Assembly: GCA_030041475.1 (NCBI GenBank)
Contig: JASHNU010000086.1
Span: forward strand, 1 to 64,000
DNA from: Candidatus Sulfotelmatobacter sp.
GTDB taxonomy: Bacteria; Acidobacteriota; Terriglobia; Terriglobales; Acidobacteriaceae
DNA length: 64,000 nucleotides
Reading direction: 5' to 3'
In this document: positions 2 through 12,233 of the stretch, one piece after another
How the letters are laid out: each line of letters starts with the position of its first letter
How positions within the stretch are numbered: position 1 is the stretch's first letter
Notes under the pieces: generated by a model
What the model saw: only the letters and a program-made list of their open reading frames with translations
Told to the model about the DNA's origin: nothing
Databases searched by the model: none
Made by a program: the position numbers and the translations under genes

Positions 2-1627
2 TGCGATAACGAGCAGAACGCCACACTTTTGTTTAAGAGCGCGCGCAATTCGATGTCCAACCAGACGTCGCTTGCCGTCGCCGTCGTGGAAGGTCAGGCC
101 GGGGTAGCCAAAGCGTTTCGCATCGGCGCCAACCTCGGCCTGACCAAACCCATCAATATCGAGCAGGCGAAGGGAACTCTGCGTGTAGCCCGCGGGCTGT
201 TGCGCAAAGGCGAACCCGCAAAACCGGCAGCGCCCACGCCATCGGCTACAGAGTCCGCGGCGCCAGCTCCTACGGCTGCAAAGCCCGGGCCCAAACCGAC
301 CCCGCGCCCTGCACCAACCACACTTTCTGCGGCCTCGACTGCGCGTGCCGTCGTGAAGCCCACGCCGAGCACGGCACCCGCGCAATCCGCCACCGCAGCC
401 AGTTCGCTCGCTCCAGCGCGCTCCGATTTACCCGAAATCAAGAACAAGCCCGTTACGGCCCCGGCACCCAAGACGGCGATGCCAGCCGTCGCACTGAAGC
501 CCGCGGCGGCTGTGGTTCCGGCTGCCGCCGAGGCGGCGCCTGTAATCAAGTCATCGGCTCCGATTTCCGCGCCGGCATTCAGCGGAGCAGCCAGCGCGCC
601 TGCCCCGGCCCGCCAGCCGGAGACAGCCAGCGTCGCAGAAGCAGCGCCCTCCATTACCGAAACAGAAGCGCCAGCCGCGAAACATGCGGAGGCGAGTAAG
701 ACTTCCGCTCCCGTCGGAGCAGAACCGTCCTTCACGTTTGGCGGGGCGAACGTCGCCGAAGCAAGCGGCGGATCCAAGAAGATTTTTCTGGCAGTGGCCG
801 CGGCGGCGCTCGTTGCCGCCGGTCTCTACACGGGCTGGACCTACTATCAGGAACACCGCAGCCAGACCGCTAGCTCGTTTTCGGCTCGTATAGCGGCTTC
901 GCAAACGGCGAAGCCGGCCCCCGTGCCTCCAGCAACACCGGTGACGGCTCCTCCAAACCCGGCGGCTCAAACTGCTTCGCAGCCCACCGCCGATACAACT
1001 TCGCCTTCAGTAACCCCCGCGCCCTCTACGGGCTCCACTGCGGCCGCATCCACGGCCGACAGCACCGATTCGGCCGACGACGACAATTTGCCCGCACCGG
1101 CGCCCGCCAAGAAACCGACTTCGGCGCAGCCACAAAGCAGCAAGGCTGCACCGGCGGCGAAGCCCGCATCCGCTCCGGCCACCGCTCCTCTCGTCGTGAA
1201 GGGCGGCGCAGTTCCCAAGATCAAGACCAAAGTTGAAGCTGATGCCGACGCTCCCAGCCTGATGGCGACGGCTGGAGCCGGCGCACCGCCGCCCAGCATC
1301 GTGGATACGGAAGGGACCGCCCCCAAGCCGGTGCTACAGACCATGAACATCTCACAAGGGGTGTCGCAGGGATTGCTTTACAAGAAAGTTTCACCCGTGT
1401 ATCCCAGCAGCGCTCTGGGCATGCGCATTGAGGGCACGGTGGAGTTGCAGGCCACCATCTCGAAGACCGGCGACATCACCAAAGTAAAGGTCCTAAGCGG
1501 CGATCCTCAGCTCTCCAAGGCCGCCTCCGACGCCGTCAAGCAATGGAAGTACAAGCCGTATCTGCTGAACGGAGAGCCGGTCGAGATTACGACCCAGGTC
1601 ACGATCAACTTCAAGCTGCCGAAATAA
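2..1627 (+). CDS. TonB-family C-terminal protein with receiver-like N-terminus (5' end cut by window)
   Basis: The reading frame is open to the left edge, so the start lies outside; the first in-window start-like codon (TTG at 29) is probably not real. The visible N-terminus resembles the second half of a response-regulator receiver fold: an A-F-R-I-G-A-N stretch followed by a conserved Lys-Pro and a final helix. A very long Ala/Pro-rich linker follows, then one membrane helix at about nt 780-845 (FLAVAAAALVAAGLYTGW), a second Ala/Pro/Thr linker, and from about nt 1370 a TonB C-terminal domain (VYPSSALGMRIEGTVELQA, then QWKYKPYLLNGEPV). Such domains sit in the periplasm and pass inner-membrane energy or force to outer-membrane partners. 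The order suggests a cytoplasmic sensor-like module coupled to a periplasmic TonB domain. No ExbB/ExbD genes are nearby. The family is clear; the partner is unknown. Confidence 0.85.
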   Translation, partial: CDNEQNATLLFKSARNSMSNQTSLAVAVVEGQAGVAKAFRIGANLGLTKPINIEQAKGTLRVARGLLRKGEPAKPAAPTPSATESAAPAPTAAKPGPKPTPRPAPTTLSAASTARAVVKPTPSTAPAQSATAASSLAPARSDLPEIKNKPVTAPAPKTAMPAVALKPAAAVVPAAAEAAPVIKSSAPISAPAFSGAASAPAPARQPETASVAEAAPSITETEAPAAKHAEASKTSAPVGAEPSFTFGGANVAEASGGSKKIFLAVAAAALVAAGLYTGWTYYQEHRSQTASSFSARIAASQTAKPAPVPPATPVTAPPNPAAQTASQPTADTTSPSVTPAPSTGSTAAASTADSTDSADDDNLPAPAPAKKPTSAQPQSSKAAPAAKPASAPATAPLVVKGGAVPKIKTKVEADADAPSLMATAGAGAPPPSIVDTEGTAPKPVLQTMNISQGVSQGLLYKKVSPVYPSSALGMRIEGTVELQATISKTGDITKVKVLSGDPQLSKAASDAVKQWKYKPYLLNGEPVEITTQVTINFKLPK

Positions 1628-1971: not shown

Positions 1972-4572
1972 CTACTGTGGCTGCAGTACTTCGTCGACGA
2001 CCAGCTTGCTGCCCTGCCCGGCGGTGATGACCTTATGCACCGGCGCGTATCCCGTCAGCGTAATGTCGACGACGTAGTTGCCCGGGTCGAGCGCGACATC
2101 CATCGGCGAGTTCTTCTCCATCAGGTGCTGGTTGATGGCCACCTGCGCGCCCTTGGGCTGGGTGCGGATGCTGACCGTCGCCTGACCGGGCTGCGCGCCT
2201 TTGCCACCGAACAGCTTCGACATCTTGCCGACGGTATGCATGCTGTCGATGTTTCCCAGCGGCCGCAACGAAGGAGCGAAGTTGAACGTCTGTCCCAGCA
2301 CGAACTGCATGCTCATGGTCTCGTCCAGATAGCCGGCCTTGCGGACCAACACCGTGTGCTGGCCTTTGTCAACGCTGACCTGGCCGGGAGTCCTCGCGCC
2401 TGAGTCGCGACCATCCACGTAAATGTTGGCTCCGGCCGGGTCGCTCTTCACCACCAGCGTGGCCATCAGTTGCGACAGATGCACGACGATGGTGGCGCGG
2501 TTTGCGGCCGTCACGGCGACAGGGCGCGTGTCGGTGGAGTAGCCGGGCTTGCTCACCGTGATGGAGTGCTGCCCCGGCATCAGGTTATTCAGCGCGAATG
2601 GCGTCACCCAGCTCGGATCGCTCCTGCCATCGAGTTGCACCTGCGCGCCTTGCGGAGTTGAATCGACAGCAAGTGAGCCAGGAATGACGACCGGCTTCGG
2701 AGGCGCCGCCGGCGCTCTCTTGTGCGCGGGTTTCTTCGCGGTTTCGGCCGGTTCAGCTGGAGCGGGCTGCGCTTCGGTGGTCTGCTCCGGCGCGCTCTGA
2801 GCGACTGGCTTCGCCTCCTGCTGAATGGTCGGCGCCTGCTCTGCGGCACTCTGCCGCGGCGCACCGTTGTCCTCGTCGCTGTTCTGGCTGTGAACGTAGT
2901 ACGTTACGCCGATACCGATGGCGAGAATCACTACGGCTGCAGCGCCGATGGCATAGCCGTAAAGTTTGGGCGGAACGGCTGTGATCTCCTTGATGGCCTT
3001 TTCGGCCACTTCGCGCGTCTGAACCTTGGGCTTGTCCTCAGTTCTCCTGAGGTTGCCGAGGCTGCCGTTGAACATGGTCGACGTCGGTTTCTTGGGTTCT
3101 TCCGGCTCGAACACTGGTGGCGGAGGAGGCGGCGGGGGCGCAGTATAGATCTCCTTAAGTGGAGGAAGTTCGGAAATTTCCGAGAAGCTGGTCCCGGTGC
3201 TGGCGGCCGGTCCGCCGCCCTCGGCCATCATCGGATCGACGGCGATCTTAGGAGCGTCGCCCTGCGGCTCGAAGGTTTCGACCTGGGGCTCGTCAGCTAC
3301 CGCAGACGACAGGTGCGCCGATGGGGGCTCAGCCGATGTGATCGTTGCCTTCACGCTGGCACTGATGAACTGGTCGGAGAGATCGATCTCGGGAATCTCG
3401 TGGTCCGGAATCGAATGGTCAACTGGCGGCGCCGGTTGGACGTCGGAACGGCCCACCCCCGCCGCAGCCGCAGCCGCTTTCGGCGCGGAAAATGTGCTGG
3501 CCGGTTTCTCGTCGTCATGAGCAACGGCGCGAGCAAAGGTCTCGGAGCTCGCCGCTGGCTCGACTTTCTTCTGGGCCGGCTTGGCGGGCGCTGAGGCCTG
3601 TGCCATTTTCGGCGGCGCGACACTTTTAGCTGGCGCCGGCGCACTGGGCTTTGCTGGCTTCGCGCCAGCAGGAGCGATGAACTTGGCTTGCGCCGCTGCG
3701 TTTGCTTTGGCCGGCGCCATCGTCCCTTTCGGTGCAGCCGCCTTGGCCGGCATCGGCCTCGATTCCTTGCATTTTTCCAGATCGTCGAGCAGGGCGCGGC
3801 CCGTCTGATAGCGCTCTGCCGGGTCCTTTGACAGCGCCTTCATGATCAGATCGCTGAGCAAGGGATGCACCTTGGGATTCACATGTACGGGCGCAACCGG
3901 CGTGCTGCTGAGGATGCTCTGCCGCAGGTTCTCCGCATCCTCGCGATCGAACGCCTTCCGCTCCGTCACCATTTCATAGAACATGGCGCCCAACGTGAAC
4001 AGGTTCGAGCGGCCGTCCATGGGCTGGCCCAGAATCTGTTCCGGCGACATGTAATGCATGGACTCGGGAAGTCCCTCAGTAATGTATTGGAGAAAATTTC
4101 CCGCACTCGAAACGCCGAAGCCGAGAATCTTGACCGTGCCGTCCCAGCCGCACATGATCTTGGCCGGCTCCAGGCTGTAGTGAACGATATTCTGCGAAGT
4201 TGCGTGATCTAATCCGCTCGACAACTGCCGCCCGATATCGAGCAAATCCCAGATGGAAAATCCTTCTTTGCGGGCCAGCATGGTGGCGATGCTGTTGCCC
4301 TGCACATACTCCATGGCGACGCAGAACTTGCCTTCAATCTCGCCAGCGCCGAGTGCGCTGGTGATGTTCGAACTGCTCAGGACCTTGGTGCTCTCGGCTT
4401 CGGCCAGCAGCGCCTGTTCCAGAGCAGTTGCGGCCTCGCCGAACGCGCTCAATTCTATCGCTTTCAGCGCAATGGTCTGCCCGGTTTCGGGGTCGTTGGC
4501 CTTGTAGACGACTCCCGTGGGCGATTTCGCGAGTTCACTCAAGATTTCGAAAGGGCCGAGTTTGGTCGACAT
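1972..4572 (-). CDS. Membrane-anchored serine/threonine pseudokinase with three PEGA domains
   Basis: 866 residues. Residues 8-268 have the Hanks-type kinase fold: the ATP-anchoring Lys37 (in IALKAI) and a plausible helix-C Glu (58 or 60) are kept, and the SPE motif is at 176-178. The catalytic centre is lost. The HRD loop reads H131-Y-S, with the usual downstream Lys and Asn replaced by Glu135 and Lys138, and DFG is replaced by GFG (151-153). Phosphotransfer is therefore unlikely, although ATP binding or scaffolding remains possible. Residues 275-535 are an Ala/Pro-rich linker with a polyproline run near 480; a membrane helix lies at 538-559; three PEGA domains follow (about 632-695, 703-768, 797-850) and would be outside the cytoplasmic membrane. 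PEGA domains are thought to bind envelope surfaces. The gene is divergent from the ABC operon. The fold is certain; the role is inferred. Confidence 0.9.
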   Translation of the reverse strand: MSTKLGPFEILSELAKSPTGVVYKANDPETGQTIALKAIELSAFGEAATALEQALLAEAESTKVLSSSNITSALGAGEIEGKFCVAMEYVQGNSIATMLARKEGFSIWDLLDIGRQLSSGLDHATSQNIVHYSLEPAKIMCGWDGTVKILGFGVSSAGNFLQYITEGLPESMHYMSPEQILGQPMDGRSNLFTLGAMFYEMVTERKAFDREDAENLRQSILSSTPVAPVHVNPKVHPLLSDLIMKALSKDPAERYQTGRALLDDLEKCKESRPMPAKAAAPKGTMAPAKANAAAQAKFIAPAGAKPAKPSAPAPAKSVAPPKMAQASAPAKPAQKKVEPAASSETFARAVAHDDEKPASTFSAPKAAAAAAGVGRSDVQPAPPVDHSIPDHEIPEIDLSDQFISASVKATITSAEPPSAHLSSAVADEPQVETFEPQGDAPKIAVDPMMAEGGGPAASTGTSFSEISELPPLKEIYTAPPPPPPPPVFEPEEPKKPTSTMFNGSLGNLRRTEDKPKVQTREVAEKAIKEITAVPPKLYGYAIGAAAVVILAIGIGVTYYVHSQNSDEDNGAPRQSAAEQAPTIQQEAKPVAQSAPEQTTEAQPAPAEPAETAKKPAHKRAPAAPPKPVVIPGSLAVDSTPQGAQVQLDGRSDPSWVTPFALNNLMPGQHSITVSKPGYSTDTRPVAVTAANRATIVVHLSQLMATLVVKSDPAGANIYVDGRDSGARTPGQVSVDKGQHTVLVRKAGYLDETMSMQFVLGQTFNFAPSLRPLGNIDSMHTVGKMSKLFGGKGAQPGQATVSIRTQPKGAQVAINQHLMEKNSPMDVALDPGNYVVDITLTGYAPVHKVITAGQGSKLVVDEVLQPQ

Positions 4573-5094
4573 TTCTTGCTTTGCTCCATTCCTACACGAG
4601 CCCGTCCAGTGCCAGCGACCAGGCTCGGCCGGCGGAGATTCCGCGCGCGAGTATGCTTAGCATAACCCTGCTCGTTCCCGGCTTCGAGTTACCGAAGTAA
4701 GCAGCAACTCGGGCTTTCCTGGCCGCGGACGGGCGTGTTCCTTTTCGTTTTGGGTGGGGTGGGCGGAACCTGATTGCGGCCCTCTCCGCGCTGGCGTAAC
4801 CTTGCGATCCCTCCACAGGTTTAGGGATATGTGAGCCTTTCGGTCGTCTTCCCGCGTAGCCGTCTTTTTGCGGACTACCCAGGTGTGACATTTGTCATCC
4901 GGGCAGAATGACGTTGTCCACTTGTGGCCAGTGGCGATTGGCGAGAGCATCGAGGCGATGAGGGTGAGAATTTTCAACACGGCAAAGGACGAGACTGGCC
5001 GGGTTGTCTGCGGGAAGGGGCTTCGTTTATTCTGGCGGGGCTGGGGCGCGCCTCCCTGCACCGCCCGGTGTCCGCTTCTCCCTGGAGTTCACCC
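4573..5094. promoter_or_regulatory. Divergent intergenic region with two palindromes
   Basis: 522 bases between the pseudokinase start (minus) and the first FtsX gene (plus), so it should hold both promoters. Two short perfect palindromes stand out: a 13-nt one at 4652-4664 (TATGCTTAGCATA), about 80 bases upstream of the pseudokinase, and a 12-nt one at 4886-4897 (TGACATTTGTCA), about 200 bases upstream of the FtsX gene. Either could be an operator; no regulator is encoded nearby. The plus-strand frame is open from 4924, but the start used for FtsX is 5095, where the conserved N-terminal helix begins. Confidence 0.35.
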
Positions 5095-6243
5095 ATGACG
5101 TTGACCCGGTTCGTCACCAAGAACGCCTTTCGCAACAAGCGCCGCAGCATTCTCACCGTGCTGAGCATCGCTTTTTCTTTGCTGTTGCTCACGTTCATGA
5201 TGACGATCTGGCGCGGTTTCTATCTGGACGAGGGAAGCAAGGAATCGGCACAGCGGCTGGTGGTGCGGCACCGCGTTTCGCTGACGTTTTGGCTGCCCAG
5301 CTTCTACCGGGAAAAGATCAGAGCCATACCCGGAGTGGTTGCCATTGTCCCCGTTTCCTGGTTTGGCGGAATTTATAAAGATCAGAAGCCGGAGAATTTT
5401 TTCGCGCAGTTCGCTGTGGACCCGGAGGAATTCTTCAAAGTCTACCGCGACTTCCAGATGCCCGAGGACCAGATCACAGCCTGGCAGCGGGACCGCCAGG
5501 GCGTGATTGTCGAGGACGATCTGGCTCAGAAATATGGATGGAAGCTCGGTGACCGCATTGTGTTGCAGGGCACGATTTACCCGTTGAATCCTGAACTGAA
5601 CATACGCGGGATCTACCACACCGACCCAGCAGCAAAGTCGGTTTACTTCCACACCAAGTACCTGGAGGAATCGGTCGGCTTCTTCAAGGGACAAACCGGC
5701 ACTTTCAGCGTGCTGGCAGCCAATCCGTCCGACGTCAGCCAGATCACGACCACCGTCGACGACATGTTCCGCAATTCGCCGCAGCCGACCAAGGCGGAAA
5801 GTGAAAAGGCGTTCGGCCTCGAGTTCGTCGCCATGATGGGCAACGTGAAAGCGTTCATCCTGAGTATCTGTTCCGCTGTAGTTTTCGCGACACTGCTAGT
5901 ATCAGCTAACACCATGGCGATGTCGATTCGCGAGCGCACGCGTGAAGTGGCCGTGCTGAAGACTCTAGGCTTCACGCGCCGCAGCGTTCTCGGCCTGTTT
6001 GTGAGCGAGGCCGTCGCGCTGTCACTGGTCGGTGGGGTGATCGGAATTTTTCTGGGCTGGCTCATGGTGTACGGGTTGACCCATTCGCCGCAGTTCTTCA
6101 GCTTCTTCCCCTTGAAGGTGACGGGCGGCATTGGAGCTCTTTCCATGCTGACGGCCGGTCTGGTGGGACTGCTGAGCTCGGCGGTGCCGTCGTATCACGC
6201 ATCGCAGGTGAACATTGTGGACGGACTGCGGCACATCGGTTGA
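5095..6243 (+). CDS. FtsX/MacB-type ABC transporter permease, paralogue 1 of 3
   Basis: 382 residues. Membrane helix 1 at about 19-41 (SILTVLSIAFSLLLLTFMM), a large periplasmic domain at about 42-255, then three helices typical of the FtsX permease domain (residues about 260-380), including the conserved segment before NTMAMSIRERTREVAVLK. The ATG at 5095 is chosen because the protein then begins exactly like its two neighbours (MTL, then RNKRRS); a longer open frame from 4924 lacks family similarity. It is the first gene of a six-gene operon ending in an ATPase at 12233. MacB/LolCE-type permeases extract or expel substrates across the periplasm by mechanotransmission; this one has no fused ATPase. 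The substrate is unknown. Confidence 0.9.
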   Translation: MTLTRFVTKNAFRNKRRSILTVLSIAFSLLLLTFMMTIWRGFYLDEGSKESAQRLVVRHRVSLTFWLPSFYREKIRAIPGVVAIVPVSWFGGIYKDQKPENFFAQFAVDPEEFFKVYRDFQMPEDQITAWQRDRQGVIVEDDLAQKYGWKLGDRIVLQGTIYPLNPELNIRGIYHTDPAAKSVYFHTKYLEESVGFFKGQTGTFSVLAANPSDVSQITTTVDDMFRNSPQPTKAESEKAFGLEFVAMMGNVKAFILSICSAVVFATLLVSANTMAMSIRERTREVAVLKTLGFTRRSVLGLFVSEAVALSLVGGVIGIFLGWLMVYGLTHSPQFFSFFPLKVTGGIGALSMLTAGLVGLLSSAVPSYHASQVNIVDGLRHIG

Positions 6244-6305
6244 TCAGGGGCCATTTTTCGGCCGTTCGAGGTAAGTTCGTGGGGTTCGGGAAGCGGGTTT
6301 GATTT

Positions 6306-7460
6306 ATGACGCTGGGAGGTTTTGTGGTTCGCGGCATGTATCGTCGGAACTTGCGGCGCAGCCTGCTGACCATGATCAGCATCAGCTTCTCGCTGCTGTT
6401 GCTGACGCTCATGATCTGCATCTGGCGCTCGTTTTACGTGGATCAGGTCGCACCCGAGGCCTCGCGGCGGCTGATCATTCGCGATCGCGTTTCGCTGGCG
6501 TTCCTTCTGCCGGCCTATTATCGCGAAAAGATTCGGGCTGTGCCTGGCATAACCGCGGTGGCGCCGATAACCTGGTTTCAAGGCCGCTACATTGACGACC
6601 GCGCCGAACATTTCTTCGCTCGGGTCGCTACCGATCCCGACGAATACCTGAAAGTCGCATCGGACAAAATCACGCCGCCGGATCAGGTCAAGGCCTGGCA
6701 GCAGGATCGTGCTGGGGCGCTCGTCGACGTCACGCTGATGAACAAGTATGGCTGGAAGATCGGCGACCACATCCACATTCAGGGCACCATCTTCCCGGTT
6801 GATCTCGACCTCAACATTCGAGCGGTATATCACCGTGATCCTCCGCAAAACGCGCTTTACTTCAATACGAAGTACCTGGAAGAGGCATGGCCTGAATTCA
6901 AAGGACAAGCCATGTGGTACAGCGCACAGATCGATTCAGCGGATCACGTGGCTTCGGCCTCCAAGCAGATTGATGACATGTTTCGCAATTCGCCTTGGCA
7001 GACAAAAACCGAGAGCGAGAAAGCGTTTCAGCTCGGCTTTGTCGCCTCGCTCGGGAACGTGAAGGCATTCATTCTCGGGATCTGCGGCGCCGTGATGTTC
7101 GCCATCATGCTGGTGTCCGCCAATACGATGGCGATGTCGGTGCGCAGCCGCACCCGCGAAGTTGCTGTGCTGAAGACGCTCGGCTTCACGAGACAGCGCG
7201 TGCTCTCGATTTTCGTGAGCGAGGCGATCGCTTTGTCGGTAGCCGGAGGAGTGCTGGGAGTTCTGGTGGCGATTCCGGTGATCACGGGGATGACCCATCG
7301 CTTCATCGGCCTTGGCATTCCGCTCGACATGAAAGTGAAAGCGCCTACGGCAGGCCTGGCCTTGCTGGTCGCGTTGGTTCTGGGAATAGTGAGCGGCTAT
7401 CTTCCGGCGTATCGCGCGTCGCGCATGAATATTGTGGAGGGACTGCGGCACATTGGGTAA
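6306..7460 (+). CDS. FtsX/MacB-type ABC transporter permease, paralogue 2 of 3
   Basis: 384 residues, the same four-helix plan as the genes on each side: helix 1 at about 19-41, a periplasmic domain to about 255, then three C-terminal helices. It is closer to paralogue 3 than to paralogue 1: the first-helix coding stretch (6370-6425 versus 7579-7634) and the last 50 bases are almost identical at DNA level, pointing to recent duplication or gene conversion. It starts 62 bases after the previous stop. It probably pairs with another permease and the ATPase encoded at 11520-12233. Confidence 0.9.
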   Translation: MTLGGFVVRGMYRRNLRRSLLTMISISFSLLLLTLMICIWRSFYVDQVAPEASRRLIIRDRVSLAFLLPAYYREKIRAVPGITAVAPITWFQGRYIDDRAEHFFARVATDPDEYLKVASDKITPPDQVKAWQQDRAGALVDVTLMNKYGWKIGDHIHIQGTIFPVDLDLNIRAVYHRDPPQNALYFNTKYLEEAWPEFKGQAMWYSAQIDSADHVASASKQIDDMFRNSPWQTKTESEKAFQLGFVASLGNVKAFILGICGAVMFAIMLVSANTMAMSVRSRTREVAVLKTLGFTRQRVLSIFVSEAIALSVAGGVLGVLVAIPVITGMTHRFIGLGIPLDMKVKAPTAGLALLVALVLGIVSGYLPAYRASRMNIVEGLRHIG

Positions 7461-7518
7461 GCCGGCGCTTCTCGCAAAGGCAGCAAAAAAGCACCGGCTC
7501 CTGTGGTCTGACGAACCT

Positions 7519-8670
7519 ATGACGCTAGGCAGCTTCATCGTGCGCAATACGTTTCGCAACAAGCGCCGGAGTGTACTGACCATGATCAGCATCAGCTTGT
7601 CGCTGCTGTTGCTGACGCTCATGATCTGCATCTGGCGCACTTTATATATCGACCAGTTCGCGCCCCAGGCTTCGCGGCGCCTGATCGTTCGCGATCGCGT
7701 CTCACTGGCGGTTTCCCTGCCAACCTACTATCGCGACAAGATTCGCAGCATTCCTGGCGTGACGGCAATTGTGCCGTATGTGTGGTTTGACGGCCGTTAT
7801 ATTGACGGCCGCCCGGAGCATTATTTCGCACGTATGCCCACCGATCCGGATGAATATCCGAACGTTGCTGTGGACAAGATCATTCCGCCGGATGAGTTGA
7901 AGGCCTGGCAGCAGGATCGGGCCGGGGCGTTGGTTGATGTCTCCCTGATGAAGAAGTATGGATGGAAGCTGAGAGACCGCGTTCACATCGACGGCACCAT
8001 TTTCCCGATCGATCTGGACTTGACGATTCGAGCCACGTATCGCCGCGATCCGCCGCAGGATACTCTCTTCTTCAACATGAAATACCTCGAGGAAGCCGTG
8101 CCGCAGATCAAAGGGCAGGCCGGATGGTTTGCCGCGATGATCGATTCGCCGGAGCATATAGTGCCGGCAGCTGCTCAAATCGACCAGATGTTTCATAACG
8201 CGCCGTTCCCCACCAAAACGGAGACCGAGAAGGCGTTCCAACTGGGTTTTGTGGCGACTTTGGGCAATGTTAAGGCATTCATTCTGGCAATCTGCGGCGC
8301 GGTCGTGTTTGCCATCCTGTTGGTTTCGGCCAATACCATGGCAATGTCCATTCGAAGCCGGACGCGTGAAGTGGCTGTGCTGAAGACGCTCGGCTTCACG
8401 CAGCAGAAACTGCTTTCCATCTTCGTGAGCGAAGCGGTTGCGCTGGCTCTCGTCGGCGGAGTGCTGGGCGTGCTTGTGGCCATCCCTCTCATCACTGCGC
8501 TGACGCATGGATTTATCGGGATCGGCATTCCGCTTGATATGAAAGTAAAATGGCCGACGGCCGCGCTGGCGATGCTGGTGGCGTTGATTTTGGGCCTGAT
8601 CAGCGGCTACTTGCCGGCGTATCGCGCGTCGCGCATGAATATTGTGGAGGGACTGCGGCATATTGGGTGA
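7519..8670 (+). CDS. FtsX/MacB-type ABC transporter permease, paralogue 3 of 3
   Basis: 383 residues. The frame is open from 7432, inside the end of the previous gene, but ATG 7519 gives the family N-terminus MTLGSFIVRNTFRNKRRS. Architecture: one N-terminal helix, a periplasmic domain, three C-terminal FtsX helices with NTMAMSIRSRTREVAVLK and the terminal INIVEGLRHIG-like end shared by all three paralogues. It is followed after 70 bases by a fourth, more divergent permease; two small hairpins lie in that gap. Function as part of the tripartite ABC exporter is inferred from the operon. Confidence 0.9.
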   Translation: MTLGSFIVRNTFRNKRRSVLTMISISLSLLLLTLMICIWRTLYIDQFAPQASRRLIVRDRVSLAVSLPTYYRDKIRSIPGVTAIVPYVWFDGRYIDGRPEHYFARMPTDPDEYPNVAVDKIIPPDELKAWQQDRAGALVDVSLMKKYGWKLRDRVHIDGTIFPIDLDLTIRATYRRDPPQDTLFFNMKYLEEAVPQIKGQAGWFAAMIDSPEHIVPAAAQIDQMFHNAPFPTKTETEKAFQLGFVATLGNVKAFILAICGAVVFAILLVSANTMAMSIRSRTREVAVLKTLGFTQQKLLSIFVSEAVALALVGGVLGVLVAIPLITALTHGFIGIGIPLDMKVKWPTAALAMLVALILGLISGYLPAYRASRMNIVEGLRHIG

Positions 8671-8680
8671 GTTTATGTAG

Positions 8681-8720
8681 GGACAGCCGCCCTCGGCTGT
8701 CCGGTCGAGCGAAGCTCGAC
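8681..8720. repeat. Two adjacent short hairpins between permease genes
   Basis: GGACAGCC/GGCTGTCC (8681-8702, 8-bp stem, 6-nt loop) is followed by GTCGAGC/GCTCGAC (8704-8720, 7-bp stem, 3-nt loop). There is no T-run, so this is not a classic terminator. It could be a small dispersed palindromic repeat or an mRNA-stability element inside the operon. Confidence 0.7.
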
Positions 8721-8740
8721 TGCGATTGAGAGTTCAATTT

Positions 8741-9928
8741 ATGGCAATACCGATCAGTTACAACATTCGCAATTTGAAGCTGCGCAAAGGTCTCACCATC
8801 ATGACCGCGCTGGGTATCGCGCTCACGGTAACGACCGCCATTTTCTTGATGGCGCTGGTGGCCGGGCTGAACCGCGCGTTCGTGTCGAGCGGCAGCAAGT
8901 TGAATGTGCTAGTGCTGCGCAAAGGATCGGAGTCGGAACTAACCGGCGGATTCGATGCGGCGCTCTTCCCCACGCTGAAGGTGCTGCCGGGAATCGCCAG
9001 AGACAGTCATGGCGAGCCGATGGCTTCTGGCGAGTGGAATGTGGTGATCGTGCTGCCGCGGAAAGACGGCACGGGCGAAGTGAACGTAACCGTGCGCGGG
9101 ATGATGCCCGACGGGCTTGAGATGCGTGAGTTGCCAGGGGCAGACGGCAAGCCCAGCGTGAAACTGGTCGAGGGGCGCTGGTTCGAGACCGGGCAGCGCG
9201 AGGTCGTGGTGAGCAAGTCTATTCGCGAGCGCTTCGCACATGCCAACATCGGCGACAGCATTGAATTCGGCAAAGGATCGTGGAGAGTCGTCGGCGTGTT
9301 CGACGCTGGCGGCTCGGCCTACGAGTCGGAAATCTGGGGCGACGTGAATCAGATGGCTTCGGACTTCGACCGCCAGGGAGGATTTTCGTCGGCGTATTTG
9401 CGGGCAAGCGATCCGATCGCCGCCGAGGCGCTGAAGAATCGCGTGAGCGACGATCAGCGGCTGAAGCTCGACGGATTGATCGAGACCGACTATTACGCCA
9501 AGCAGACCAGTTCCGGCACGCCGATTAAAATCATCGGGATTGTGGTTGCGATCATCATGGCAATCGGCTCGATTTTCGCCGCTATGAACACCATGTACGC
9601 GGCGGTGGCGTATCGCGGGCGCGAAATCGCGACCTTGCGCGTGATCGGATTCTCGCGGCCAGCGATTCTCACTTCGTTCGTCCTGGAGTCGCTGATTCTG
9701 GCGCTGCTAGGCGCGATTCTAGGCATTGTGCTCATGCTGCCCTTCAACGGCATGCAGACCGGGACCTCGAACCAAGTCACGTTCAGCGAGGTCGTGTTCG
9801 CCCTGCGCATTACGTGGTCAGTAGCATTCGTGGCGGTGTGTTTTGCTCTGGTCATGGGATTTTTCGGCGGGCTCGCTCCCGCGTGGCATGCAGCGCGGCA
9901 GAACATTTTGAACGCCCTGCGCGGATAG
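8741..9928 (+). CDS. FtsX/MacB-type ABC transporter permease (divergent fourth copy)
   Basis: 395 residues. ATG 8741 is chosen over TTG 8726, since MAIPISYNIRNLKLRKG is the usual MacB-like beginning. Helix 1 at about 18-40, a MacB-like periplasmic core at about 45-270 (with a VEGRWFETGQREVVVSKS segment), then three C-terminal helices with the NTMYAAVAYRGREIATLRV signature of DevC/MacB permeases and a terminal LNALRG. It is followed 33 bases later by a HlyD-type adaptor, the classic arrangement of a DevBCA-like or MacAB-like exporter, so this permease is the likeliest direct partner of the adaptor and ATPase. Confidence 0.9.
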   Translation: MAIPISYNIRNLKLRKGLTIMTALGIALTVTTAIFLMALVAGLNRAFVSSGSKLNVLVLRKGSESELTGGFDAALFPTLKVLPGIARDSHGEPMASGEWNVVIVLPRKDGTGEVNVTVRGMMPDGLEMRELPGADGKPSVKLVEGRWFETGQREVVVSKSIRERFAHANIGDSIEFGKGSWRVVGVFDAGGSAYESEIWGDVNQMASDFDRQGGFSSAYLRASDPIAAEALKNRVSDDQRLKLDGLIETDYYAKQTSSGTPIKIIGIVVAIIMAIGSIFAAMNTMYAAVAYRGREIATLRVIGFSRPAILTSFVLESLILALLGAILGIVLMLPFNGMQTGTSNQVTFSEVVFALRITWSVAFVAVCFALVMGFFGGLAPAWHAARQNILNALRG

Positions 9929-9961
9929 TTGAATCCAACGTTGGAAGCAAGATGAATTCGT

Positions 9962-11338
9962 ATGGCGATTGACACCAAACACGAAGATCTGCAAAGCCTG
10001 CGCATCGACCGCTCGCAGCGCGACAATGGCGGCGAGCCGCCGGCCTGGGCGCGGCGCTACATCATCGTTGGAATCGCGGTAGTTGTGCTGCTCGGCCTGA
10101 TCACGGTCGCTTACCGCGCGTTTTCTGCGAATGTGCCGCAGGTCGAAGTCGCACGCGCCGCGGCCGAATCGAGCGACGTGGGCGGAACGGTGTTGTCTGC
10201 GACCGGCTACATCGTGGCCCATCACACTATCAACGTGAACTCCAAAGTTACTGGCCGGCTGGCGTGGATCGGCGTGGAGAAGGGCGACAAGGTGAAAGAA
10301 GGCCAGGTGCTGGTCCGCCTGGAGGACCAGGAATTTCGCGCCGCGTACGAGCAGGCGGAAGGTGCTGTAGCGAACGCCCGCTCCTATCTCGAAGAGTTGC
10401 AGCACGGGTCGCGGCCCGAAGAAATTCAGCAGGCGCAGCATAATCTCGACGAAGCCCGCGCCACGCTGGTCAACGACAAGCTGACACTCGATCGCACCAA
10501 AGAGCTAGCCTCGGCGGGCGTGGTTTCGCGTCAGCAACTCGACGACGCTACCGCCAAGTTCGAAGCTGATCAGCAGCGTGTCAATTCGTTGCAGAAAGCG
10601 TTTGAGCTGACACATATCGGTCCGCGGCAAGAGGAAATCGCCCGCGCCCAGGGCGCTCTTGTACAGGCTCAGGGGCAGCTCGATTATGCCAAGTCTCAGC
10701 TCGATGCCACGATCATTCGAGCGCCCGTTACCGGGACGATCCTCGACCGCACGGCGGAAAAGGGCGAGCTGATCACGGCACAGTTTGCCAGTGGATCGGC
10801 AGGTGGGCCTCAGGGATCGGTTGTGTCGCTCGCGGACCTCAATGATCTGCAGGTTGAGCTCGACATTGCACAGGCTGATTTCGCGCGGCTGAGTCCGGCG
10901 CAAAAAGCGAAAGTCACGACGGATACGTATCCCGACAAGGAATACGACGGCGAGATCGCGCAGATTTCTCCCGAGGCGAACCGGCAGAAAGCGACGGTGC
11001 AGGTCAAGGTTCAGGTGCTGAACCCGGACAAGTATCCCGAGATCCAGCTGCGGCCGGAGATGAACGCCACTGTAAAATTCCTGGCCAATGAAACGCGGAA
11101 AGATGCCAAAGGACCGCAGGGCGTTTTCGTACCGGCGACGGCGATTCGCGATCGCGACGGCAAAAAAATTGTTCTGATTGCGTTCAACGGAAAGGCAGTC
11201 GCGCGAGAGATTCACATGCTAGGCCAGCGCAGCGACGGTGCGCTGGTGGACGGATTGGTGGGCGGCGAGAGCGTCATCACCAGCGCGCCGGCTACTTTGA
11301 AAGACGGGGACAGAGTCAAGATCAAAGGTCAATCGTAA
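9962..11338 (+). CDS. HlyD/MacA-family periplasmic adaptor (membrane fusion protein)
   Basis: 458 residues. One N-terminal membrane helix at about 33-53 (YIIVGIAVVVLLGLITVAY), a lipoyl/biotinyl-like half-motif (GRLAWIGVEKGDKVKEGQVL), a long alpha-helical hairpin at about 125-240 rich in Ala, Glu and Gln, the second lipoyl half (ATIIRAPVTGTILDRTAEKG), then beta-barrel and membrane-proximal domains. It would link the inner-membrane permease to an outer-membrane channel; no TolC-like gene is in the window, so the channel must be encoded elsewhere. It sits between the fourth permease and the ATPase of the same operon. Confidence 0.92.
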   Translation: MAIDTKHEDLQSLRIDRSQRDNGGEPPAWARRYIIVGIAVVVLLGLITVAYRAFSANVPQVEVARAAAESSDVGGTVLSATGYIVAHHTINVNSKVTGRLAWIGVEKGDKVKEGQVLVRLEDQEFRAAYEQAEGAVANARSYLEELQHGSRPEEIQQAQHNLDEARATLVNDKLTLDRTKELASAGVVSRQQLDDATAKFEADQQRVNSLQKAFELTHIGPRQEEIARAQGALVQAQGQLDYAKSQLDATIIRAPVTGTILDRTAEKGELITAQFASGSAGGPQGSVVSLADLNDLQVELDIAQADFARLSPAQKAKVTTDTYPDKEYDGEIAQISPEANRQKATVQVKVQVLNPDKYPEIQLRPEMNATVKFLANETRKDAKGPQGVFVPATAIRDRDGKKIVLIAFNGKAVAREIHMLGQRSDGALVDGLVGGESVITSAPATLKDGDRVKIKGQS

Positions 11339-11519
11339 CTATGCAGTCAGGGTTTGAGAAAAGGAAGCGAGCCAAGCGCGCGGGTTTTGCGGCGCGGCAT
11401 TTCTTAATAAAAGCCCCGCGCCACATCGCGCGGCTCGCCCACATCCTTCACTCAGGAGGCTTCGCTTGACAAAAGCTGGCCTCGTTCAGGATGACAAACA
11501 TTACTCACGAGGGAGAATC

Positions 11520-12233
11520 ATGAGCACAGTCGCACAAACCAACGTTGCCACCAGCACCAAAGTTGTGCAGGCGCGGGGCGTCACGAAAATCTTCAAACGC
11601 GATGCCTTCGAAGTGAAGGCGCTTGATGATGTTTCGATCGACATCGCCAAGGGAGAATTCCTTGCGCTCATGGGTCCTTCGGGCTCGGGCAAAACCACGC
11701 TGCTGAACATGATTGCGGCCATCGATCGCCCGACGGGCGGCGAACTGCTGGTGCGGGGGGAGGATATTTTTCGCTTCAGCGACGGTCAGATTGCCCGCTG
11801 GCGCAACGAGCACATTGGTTATGTGTTTCAGACGTTCAATCTGATTCCCGTGCTCACTGCCTTTGAGAACGTGGAGTTGCCGCTGCTGCTGACCAAACTG
11901 AATGCACAGCAACGCCGGGACCACGTGATGACCGCGCTGAAACTGGTGGGACTGGAAGATCGCGTCAGCCACCTGCCCAAGCAGCTTTCTGGCGGACAGG
12001 AGCAGCGCGTGGCCATTGCGCGGGCCATTGTCAGCGATCCGACTTTAGTGCTGGCAGACGAGCCTACAGGCGATCTCGACAGCCATTCGGCCACGGAGGT
12101 TTTGGAGATTCTGAAGCGGTTGAATGAGGACTTTCATAAGACGATTGTGATGGTCACGCACGACCCGCACGCTGCTTCCTACGCGCACGTGACCCGGCAC
12201 CTGGAAAAAGGAATGCTGCTGCCCCCGGCGTAG
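11520..12233 (+). CDS. LolD/MacB-type ABC transporter ATPase
   Basis: 237 residues. Start ATG 11520 has a purine-rich ribosome site (GAGGGAGAA) just upstream; the frame is open from 11466. Walker [14 protein letters not shown]-loop in [18 protein letters not shown], signature [14 protein letters not shown] (Gln-Glu instead of the usual Gln-Gln), Walker [13 protein letters not shown] and the switch His in VMVTHDPH are all present, so it should hydrolyse ATP. It closes the operon and is the only ATPase for the four permeases upstream. A gap of 181 bases separates it from the adaptor gene. Confidence 0.93.

Follow-up and report, generated by a model that had tools for sequence, protein, structure and literature searches.

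A conserved PEGA-domain protein with a catalytically degenerate kinase fold in Candidatus Sulfotelmatobacter, a candidate docking adaptor of the cell envelope

What might a membrane-anchored kinase fold do when its catalytic motifs are gone? This question is raised by a gene in the window analysed here, i.e., the whole 64,000-nucleotide stretch of contig JASHNU010000086.1 from Candidatus Sulfotelmatobacter sp. A preliminary description, made from the letters of the window, had recognised in the encoded protein a kinase fold lacking all catalytic residues, joined through a membrane helix to three PEGA domains. In agreement with that description, the encoded chain runs from a Hanks-type kinase fold through a linker and a single membrane helix to three PEGA domains, distributed over the window as follows.

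1972..4572, minus strand: whole gene of the PEGA pseudokinase, 866 amino acids with an ATG start (open reading frame and translation)
3763..4572, minus strand: pseudokinase domain, residues 1-270 (Pfam Pkinase match at 18-258, E 1.1e-30; AlphaFold2 model)
2968..3762, minus strand: Pro/Ala-rich cytosolic linker, residues 271-535 (low predicted local distance difference test [pLDDT] values for 281-470, low conservation)
2893..2961, minus strand: membrane helix, residues ~538-560 (hydropathy; conserved in alignment A1)
2473..2679, minus strand: PEGA domain 1 (profile match, 47.1 bits)
2263..2463, minus strand: PEGA domain 2 (profile match, 54.8 bits)
1978..2178, minus strand: PEGA domain 3 (profile match, 41.5 bits)

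When the whole protein was scanned, Kyte-Doolittle windows above 1.6 were noted only at residues 536-562, the sole hydropathy peak, and the Pfam PEGA profile matched three stretches with a score of 128.6 bits against a cut-off of 20.8. A second Pro/Ala-rich spacer, besides the linker, was present between the Pkinase and PEGA parts.

Relatives from named records were Candidatus Sulfotelmatobacter and other acidobacterial metagenome-assembled genomes. The main count of residues was made on 78 genomes of the same GTDB family, with one copy per genome; 76 of these belonged to the main group by score or genus, and two (G047 and G208) were added since their motifs had been seen to be dead. G333 has only a contig-end piece, and G027 was left out. 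The set was drawn from a whole-protein search and a profile search, the profile itself having been built from 80 loci selected for an exact match to one of two peptides, M[ED]Y[VI]QGNS or EGFSIWDL, so that conservation at these peptides is inflated among those loci. Alignments A2 and A3 comprised 55 of the 80 loci together with the window protein.

The following residues of the kinase domain were lost or kept.

4513..4533, minus strand: degenerate Gly-rich loop LAKSPTG, residues 14-20, with the first two glycines lost (A15, S17) and G20 kept
4462..4464, minus strand: beta3 Lys K37, kept (K in 75/76 rows)
4399..4401, minus strand: alphaC Glu E58, kept (E in 75/76 rows)
4159..4182, minus strand: dead catalytic loop HYSLEPAK, residues 131-138, for HRDxKxxN (S133 in 73/78, E135 in 75/78, K138 in 75/78)
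4114..4122, minus strand: GFG for DFG, residues 151-153 (position 151: G 53, S 23 and D 2 of 78)
4039..4047, minus strand: SPE kept, residues 176-178 (P in 77/78, E in 78/78)
4003..4005, minus strand: alphaF Asp changed to Asn, N190 (N in 74/78; D in 16/16 active rows)

The earlier readings of HYS for HRD, of Glu and Lys for the catalytic-loop Lys and Asn and of GFG for DFG, with the ATP-anchoring Lys and the SPE motif remaining, were all confirmed (H131-Y-S-L-E135-P-A-K138 and G151-F-G; K37 and S176-P-E178). Thus, the catalytic Lys is E135 and the catalytic Asn is K138 in the window protein, and position 133 carried Asp, or any acidic residue, in none of the 78 genomes. Losses beyond those described earlier were noted at the first two loop glycines (A15, S17) and at the alphaF Asp (N190). 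Within the Gly-rich loop, Gly occurred at position 15 in 5/76 rows, at position 17 in 0/76 and at position 20 in 46/76, while A35 was kept in 76/76 rows and the beta3 strand motif of the window protein was translated as IALK. The motif losses are real, but the statement that all catalytic residues are lacking is slightly too strong because K37 and E58, which are kept, belong to the ATP site. These residue changes are systematic rather than due to chance since the same positions were canonical in all 16 rows of active relatives in the alignment. Among 91 rows, including those of the 80 loci, the HRD Asp was kept in none and the DFG Asp in four (L116, L160, L208 and L053).

AlphaFold2, run on 56 aligned sequences, returned a model of residues 1-280 with a pLDDT of 92.9 and a predicted template modelling score (pTM) of 0.90. 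The closest solved structures were PknB, Stk1 and PknA; Foldseek gave E 3.4e-19 for its best hit, PknB was the best structural match (Z 30.3, root-mean-square deviation 2.8 over 255 residues), and the activation loop was present in the model with a helix at residues 155-163. As modelled, the kinase fold is intact despite the lost catalytic residues. A second structural comparison, performed with a model of residues 1-500, matched only the kinase domain again and nothing further. By fold, the protein falls within the Hanks-type (PknB-like) superfamily (Pfam E 1.1e-30, pLDDT 92.9, Z 30.3), and the residues expected of an active Hanks-type kinase, namely the HRD Asp, the catalytic Lys and Asn and the DFG Asp, are absent. 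The PASTA kinase profile NF033483 scored 164.9 bits against a cut-off of 450, and no PASTA repeats were present among the Pfam matches of the protein.

A whole-protein search of 81 genomes, including that of the window, identified an orthologue in 44 of 45 genomes of the same genus; the one genome with no match in this search, G027, is 85% complete. In a profile search of 298 genomes of the order, in which at most 8 candidates were scored per genome, 89 genomes gave a match at E <= 1e-70, including 54 at 353 bits or more and the remainder at 285 bits or less. Among the lower-scoring genomes, 27 showed canonical copies only, G333 and G329 contained pieces of the main group, G047, G208, G128 and G144 contained dead copies with other patterns, and G236 and G296 each contained one canonical and one dead copy. 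Canonical sequences accounted for 22 of the 28 lower-scoring rows that were read, and the main-group copy of G329 was split over two open reading frames (ORFs). A second dead pattern, with HPE or HPN for HRD, beta3 Arg and DFG kept, was common to G128, G144 and the second copies of G236 and G296, the latter two genomes having an active copy alongside; it is seen at loci L240, L241, L263 and L264. A profile search across 396 genomes of the phylum, a sample that is thin within the family and with a cut-off that misses deep branches, yielded matches at E <= 1e-85 in just two genomes, G000 and G013. As judged from sequence, the protein represents a genuine and conserved family of membrane-spanning pseudokinases that is not named in the literature searched and that belongs to one GTDB family of Terriglobales (Acidobacteria). 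Two copies of the pseudokinase were noted in G136, on contigs C8 and C34.

The preliminary description had proposed that selection maintains a non-phosphorylating fold, with local decay as the outcome to be feared if orthologues at the same locus had normal HRD and DFG. No such orthologue was found among the copies read, and the same substitutions were present across 78 genomes (E135 and K138 each in 75/78). Values of dN/dS for the kinase domain (NG86) were between 0.04 and 0.11 in eight of nine pairs, the ninth giving 0.35 at a dS of 0.06. The proposal of selection was upheld by a single dead branch, the shared substitutions, purifying selection and the confident fold model, and local decay was ruled out by presence in 44/45 same-genus genomes, low dN/dS and substitutions kept in 78 genomes.

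The single branch was evident in both trees. Thus, in a tree of 75 rows, the 39 dead rows formed one side of a branch with support of 100/99, and in another of 66 rows, for which the dead copies found later and additional active ones were included, the 33 dead rows again formed one side (100/99). All sampled dead kinases are therefore supported as one branch, but its placement differed. In the first tree the dead rows branched off at an open fork that also comprised 12 active rows from their own bacterial family (84/85), and in the second they lay beside all 27 active rows (88/84). The idea that the dead form is nested among active kinases was dropped on account of the second placement. Replacement of the active form by the dead one was likewise given up as an explanation after lower-scoring matches had been read; dead and active PEGA-type or related kinases occur together in G037, G208, G236, G286 and G296. 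Three PEGA domains were found in each of the four active relatives scanned and in each of five dead ones (L208, L199, L130, L241 and L264). Given one dead branch and canonical active lineages around it, parsimony points to an active ancestor, presumably a receptor kinase whose layout was already that of the dead family. Deep members of the dead branch were degraded to differing extents, L208 having HRN, Lys and Asn kept and DYG, L199 having HKR, Asn kept and GFG, and L053 (from G047) having HRR, DFA, a beta3 Arg and one in-frame stop. This stop, a TAA at codon 193 of an otherwise open gene, would reflect either pseudogene formation or a mistake in the assembly. Within one receptor family it is possible to align the canonical relatives, the partly degraded members (G208, G047, G247 and the pattern of G128, G144, G236 and G296) and the fixed dead form, so that the way in which a docking surface arises after loss of catalysis is directly testable.

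Evidence for such a surface was obtained from positions of new constraint, defined as those with one residue in at least 95% of 90 pseudokinase rows and with that residue in at most 20% of the 16 active rows. The comparison, which rests on the 80 peptide-picked loci, gave 19 such positions, including the start Met, which is trivial; eight were R101 and E103-D109, one was W143, and two were E135 and K138. The features concerned, together with a motif in the linker, are as follows.

4246..4272, minus strand: near-invariant block RKEGFSIWD, residues 101-109, in the alphaD-alphaE linker (new constraint; rechecked on the 78-genome set)
4141..4146, minus strand: W143-D144 in the beta7-beta8 turn (78/78; W143 new relative to active relatives)
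3151..3237, minus strand: conserved linker motif, residues 446-474 (DPMM...SFSEISELPPLKE), with 8 invariant positions in 56 sequences

Because the 80 loci had been picked by peptides in the same region, the block was rechecked on the 78 genomes, where F105 was found in 77, W108 in 76, D109 in 77 and both W143 and D144 in all 78. In mitogen-activated protein (MAP) kinases, the alphaD-alphaE linker, alphaE and the beta7-beta8 loop form the borders of the groove that receives D-peptides (PMC4370755). The likeness to MAP kinases with a D-motif groove is one of the place of special conservation only (PMC4370755); those kinases are active enzymes, no special kinship with them is claimed, and groove binding in the pseudokinase is putative.

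The linker motif followed the pattern DPMM...SFSExxELPPLKE in 69 of 72 long copies, with a one-residue variant in G322 (L157), and its invariant residues in 56 sequences were D446, P447, S462, F463, S464, P470, P471 and E474. Mean top-residue frequencies were 0.80 for residues 441-450 and 0.79 for 461-476, as compared with 0.74 for the kinase domain and 0.34 for linker residues 271-420. In the model of residues 1-500, pLDDT was 75 for residues 471-480, 78 for 481-490 and 68 for 491-500, against 36-59 for 281-470. Among 1658 ORFs of the relatives' loci the motif was found, beyond the copies already counted, in only four further pseudokinase ORFs, and it was not found in the active PEGA receptor kinases. 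In favour of the docking reading, the linker motif is missing from the deep members of G208 and G047, as are six and five, respectively, of the eight block residues.

These findings suggest that the transmembrane pseudokinase is probably a non-catalytic docking adaptor between the envelope and a cytosolic partner, descended from an active receptor kinase. In this scheme the periplasmic PEGA domains would engage a putative envelope component, and position or clustering would be passed through the membrane helix. The cytosolic pseudokinase would then bind a protein partner through the conserved surface of the alphaD-alphaE linker and beta7-beta8 turn, while the linker motif would either fill the groove in cis as a switch or itself recruit the partner, for which the neighbouring MacB-type exporter and an active Ser/Thr kinase are candidates. 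A more specific version is doubtful, namely that a receptor kinase gave up catalysis and gained a MAP-kinase-like docking groove with a tethered linker peptide, the result being a phosphorylation-free membrane switch in which the linker motif would occupy the groove and, on envelope sensing by the PEGA domains, vacate it for a partner, e.g., the neighbouring exporter. The exporter genes lie upstream of the pseudokinase.

4924..12233, plus strand: divergent cluster of four FtsX/MacB-type permeases in a row, an HlyD-type adaptor and an ABC ATPase

Several observations weigh against docking as proposed. K37, E58, A35 and, in many cases, G20 have persisted although a protein acting purely as a scaffold could do without them, and proline runs can raise pLDDT without docking. 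The dead copies of G128, G144, G236 and G296 contain neither the block nor the linker motif nor E135 and K138; the docking features are thus a mark of the main group rather than of all dead members. The exporter adjoins the pseudokinase in only part of the family. Of the 80 loci, 72 extended 1.5 kb or more upstream of the gene, and among these a permease was present upstream in 48/72 and within 1.5 kb in 32/72, leaving 24/72 without one. In six same-genus genomes with exporter-less loci (G003, G005, G008, G024, G032 and G035, 80-98% complete), a close adaptor homologue was found in G005 only (80%). A close functional tie with the MacB-type operon was accordingly not upheld, and the exporter, whose membership in the system is unproven since it is often but not always adjacent in relatives, was retained as a candidate only.

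Retention of the ATP-site residues could point to a non-hydrolysing sensor, a reading near to the allosteric ATP sensor of the preliminary description, in which ATP or another nucleotide, bound through K37 and E58 and perhaps with K138 standing in for Mg2+, would toggle the module. In its favour are K37 and E58 in 75/76 rows each, A35 in 76/76, the third loop Gly in 46/76 and a Lys at the old Asn position in 75/78, and the ActPs2 and DYD pseudokinases have been modelled with ATP (PMC12599244). Such a sensor is nonetheless unlikely. The first two loop glycines are nearly gone (5/76 and 0/76), the DFG Asp is lost in 76/78, the Mg-binding Asp and Asn and the HRD Asp are lost, the K-E pair may be structural, and families with all three motifs degraded are described as nearly always without ATP binding (PMC12599244). 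Docking was favoured over nucleotide sensing because most of the newest constraints map away from the ATP site. E135 and K138 could also serve a novel reaction at the former active site, for which SelO and SidJ are precedents (PMC12599244). This would account for the near invariance of both residues but is highly improbable, the metal ligands having become Gly/Ser and Lys, with an acidic residue at position 133 in 0/78 and at 151 in 2/78. Least credible of all is relaxed decay of a redundant kinase; although the G047 copy has an in-frame TAA and that of G329 is broken into two ORFs, dN/dS was 0.04-0.11 in 8/9 pairs (the ninth 0.35, at dS 0.06) and the new residues are kept across 78 genomes.

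The pseudokinase could instead regulate an active Ser/Thr kinase by heterodimerisation, or be its phosphorylated adaptor as in the MviN-FhaA pair, for which MviN is a precedent (PMC12599244). Consistent with this, another 31 Pkinase matches, including fragments, are present in the window's own genome, Ser462 and Ser464 of the linker are invariant in 56 sequences, and dead and active kinases are found together in the five genomes named above. This relation is, however, decidedly unlikely. No kinase is a fixed neighbour, an active kinase ORF lying beside the pseudokinase in L122 of the 80 loci and in L208 outside them, as seen in flanks that were not scanned systematically, and when up to 8 candidates were scored in each of the 54 genomes whose dead copy scored high, an active relative at E <= 1e-70 was found in 2. 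PknB dimers form via the back of the N-lobe, whereas the new constraints are at alphaD-alphaE.

Comparison with known proteins places the pseudokinase close to the active PEGA receptor kinases of its bacterial family (L054, L207, L209, L213 and others), which have the same order of kinase, linker and three PEGA domains and are close in both trees but, unlike the pseudokinase, have canonical loop glycines, HRDxKxxN, DFG and alphaF Asp. The kinase domains of PknB (Mycobacterium tuberculosis) and Stk1 (Staphylococcus aureus) have the same fold (Z about 30) and are catalytically active, and in contrast with the pseudokinase the HRD and DFG of Stk1 were canonical in the alignment. Bacterial pseudokinases have been little studied. 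A 2025 review lists seven families with pseudokinases in bacteria, and its main text, figures aside, mentions neither PEGA nor Acidobacteria (PMC12599244); literature searches on the PEGA domain with pseudokinase or kinase showed, among the papers listed, no description of such a protein, although the dead PEGA-kinase family may already be binned inside the bSTK atlas that the review cites.

Traits tested for six of the seven review families were absent here, and the families were set apart by their descriptions (PMC12599244). Thus, ActPs3/MviN is defined by VALT for VAIK and an activation-loop deletion whereas IALK and an activation loop are present here, and ActPs2 and DYD have Arg for the beta3 Lys, which is Lys here in 75/76 rows (PMC12599244); the beta3 Arg does occur in the four dead copies of the second pattern, a comparison at the level of the trait only. 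GLW has GLW for HRD and Leu or Trp for the beta3 Lys, as opposed to HYS and K37. DLHK keeps the HRD Asp and has no membrane region (PMC12599244), in contrast with HYS and the hydropathy peak at 536-562, and CP1, which has a fused COG3899 and no membrane region, differs by the same peak; no fused ATPase domain of the CP1 type was present among the Pfam matches, the COG itself not having been searched. ActPs1, compared by description, has lost alphaG in ~60% of cases and has a PQQ-type domain in many; an alphaG-like helix was modelled here at residues 213-222.

Nearest in manner of working, by analogy, would be MviN and EssB/YukC, both membrane proteins with a dead kinase domain and an adaptor role. 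MviN of M. tuberculosis is likewise a membrane protein with a dead kinase domain and an adaptor in envelope control, but lacks the beta3 Lys (VALT) and has other parts, whereas the present protein keeps that Lys and has PEGA domains (PMC12599244). EssB/YukC of type VII secretion resembles it as a scaffold with a cytosolic pseudokinase domain in a membrane protein; compared by description, EssB differs in its LDMR, its attenuated activation loop, the absence of PEGA and its other locus (PMC12599244). No type VII secretion family was present among the Pfam matches of ten ORFs near the pseudokinase gene.

Two further neighbours of the pseudokinase gene were noted in the window.

29-1627, plus strand: TonB C-terminal protein of unusual mix, with a receiver-like N-terminus (by eye), a long Pro/Ala linker and a hydrophobic helix; cut by the contig start, with fuller copies in L092 and L109
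12261-12812, minus strand: conserved 183-residue gene with no Pfam match

The convergent TonB_C protein was present downstream in 31 of the 52 loci with 5 kb of downstream sequence, and the 183-residue gene stayed near the pseudokinase in the exporter-less loci L107, L140, L141, L144, L146 and L148. No homologue of the window's exporter genes was found in 11 loci of active relatives (L054, L205-L207 and L209-L215). The active Ser/Thr kinase ORF of L122, at ~5195-7786 of that locus, has the exporter genes on one side and the pseudokinase on the other, an arrangement seen in one of the 80 loci. On the contig of the window itself (G000:C57), two more Ser/Thr kinase genes lie just beyond the window, at 64456 and 67196.

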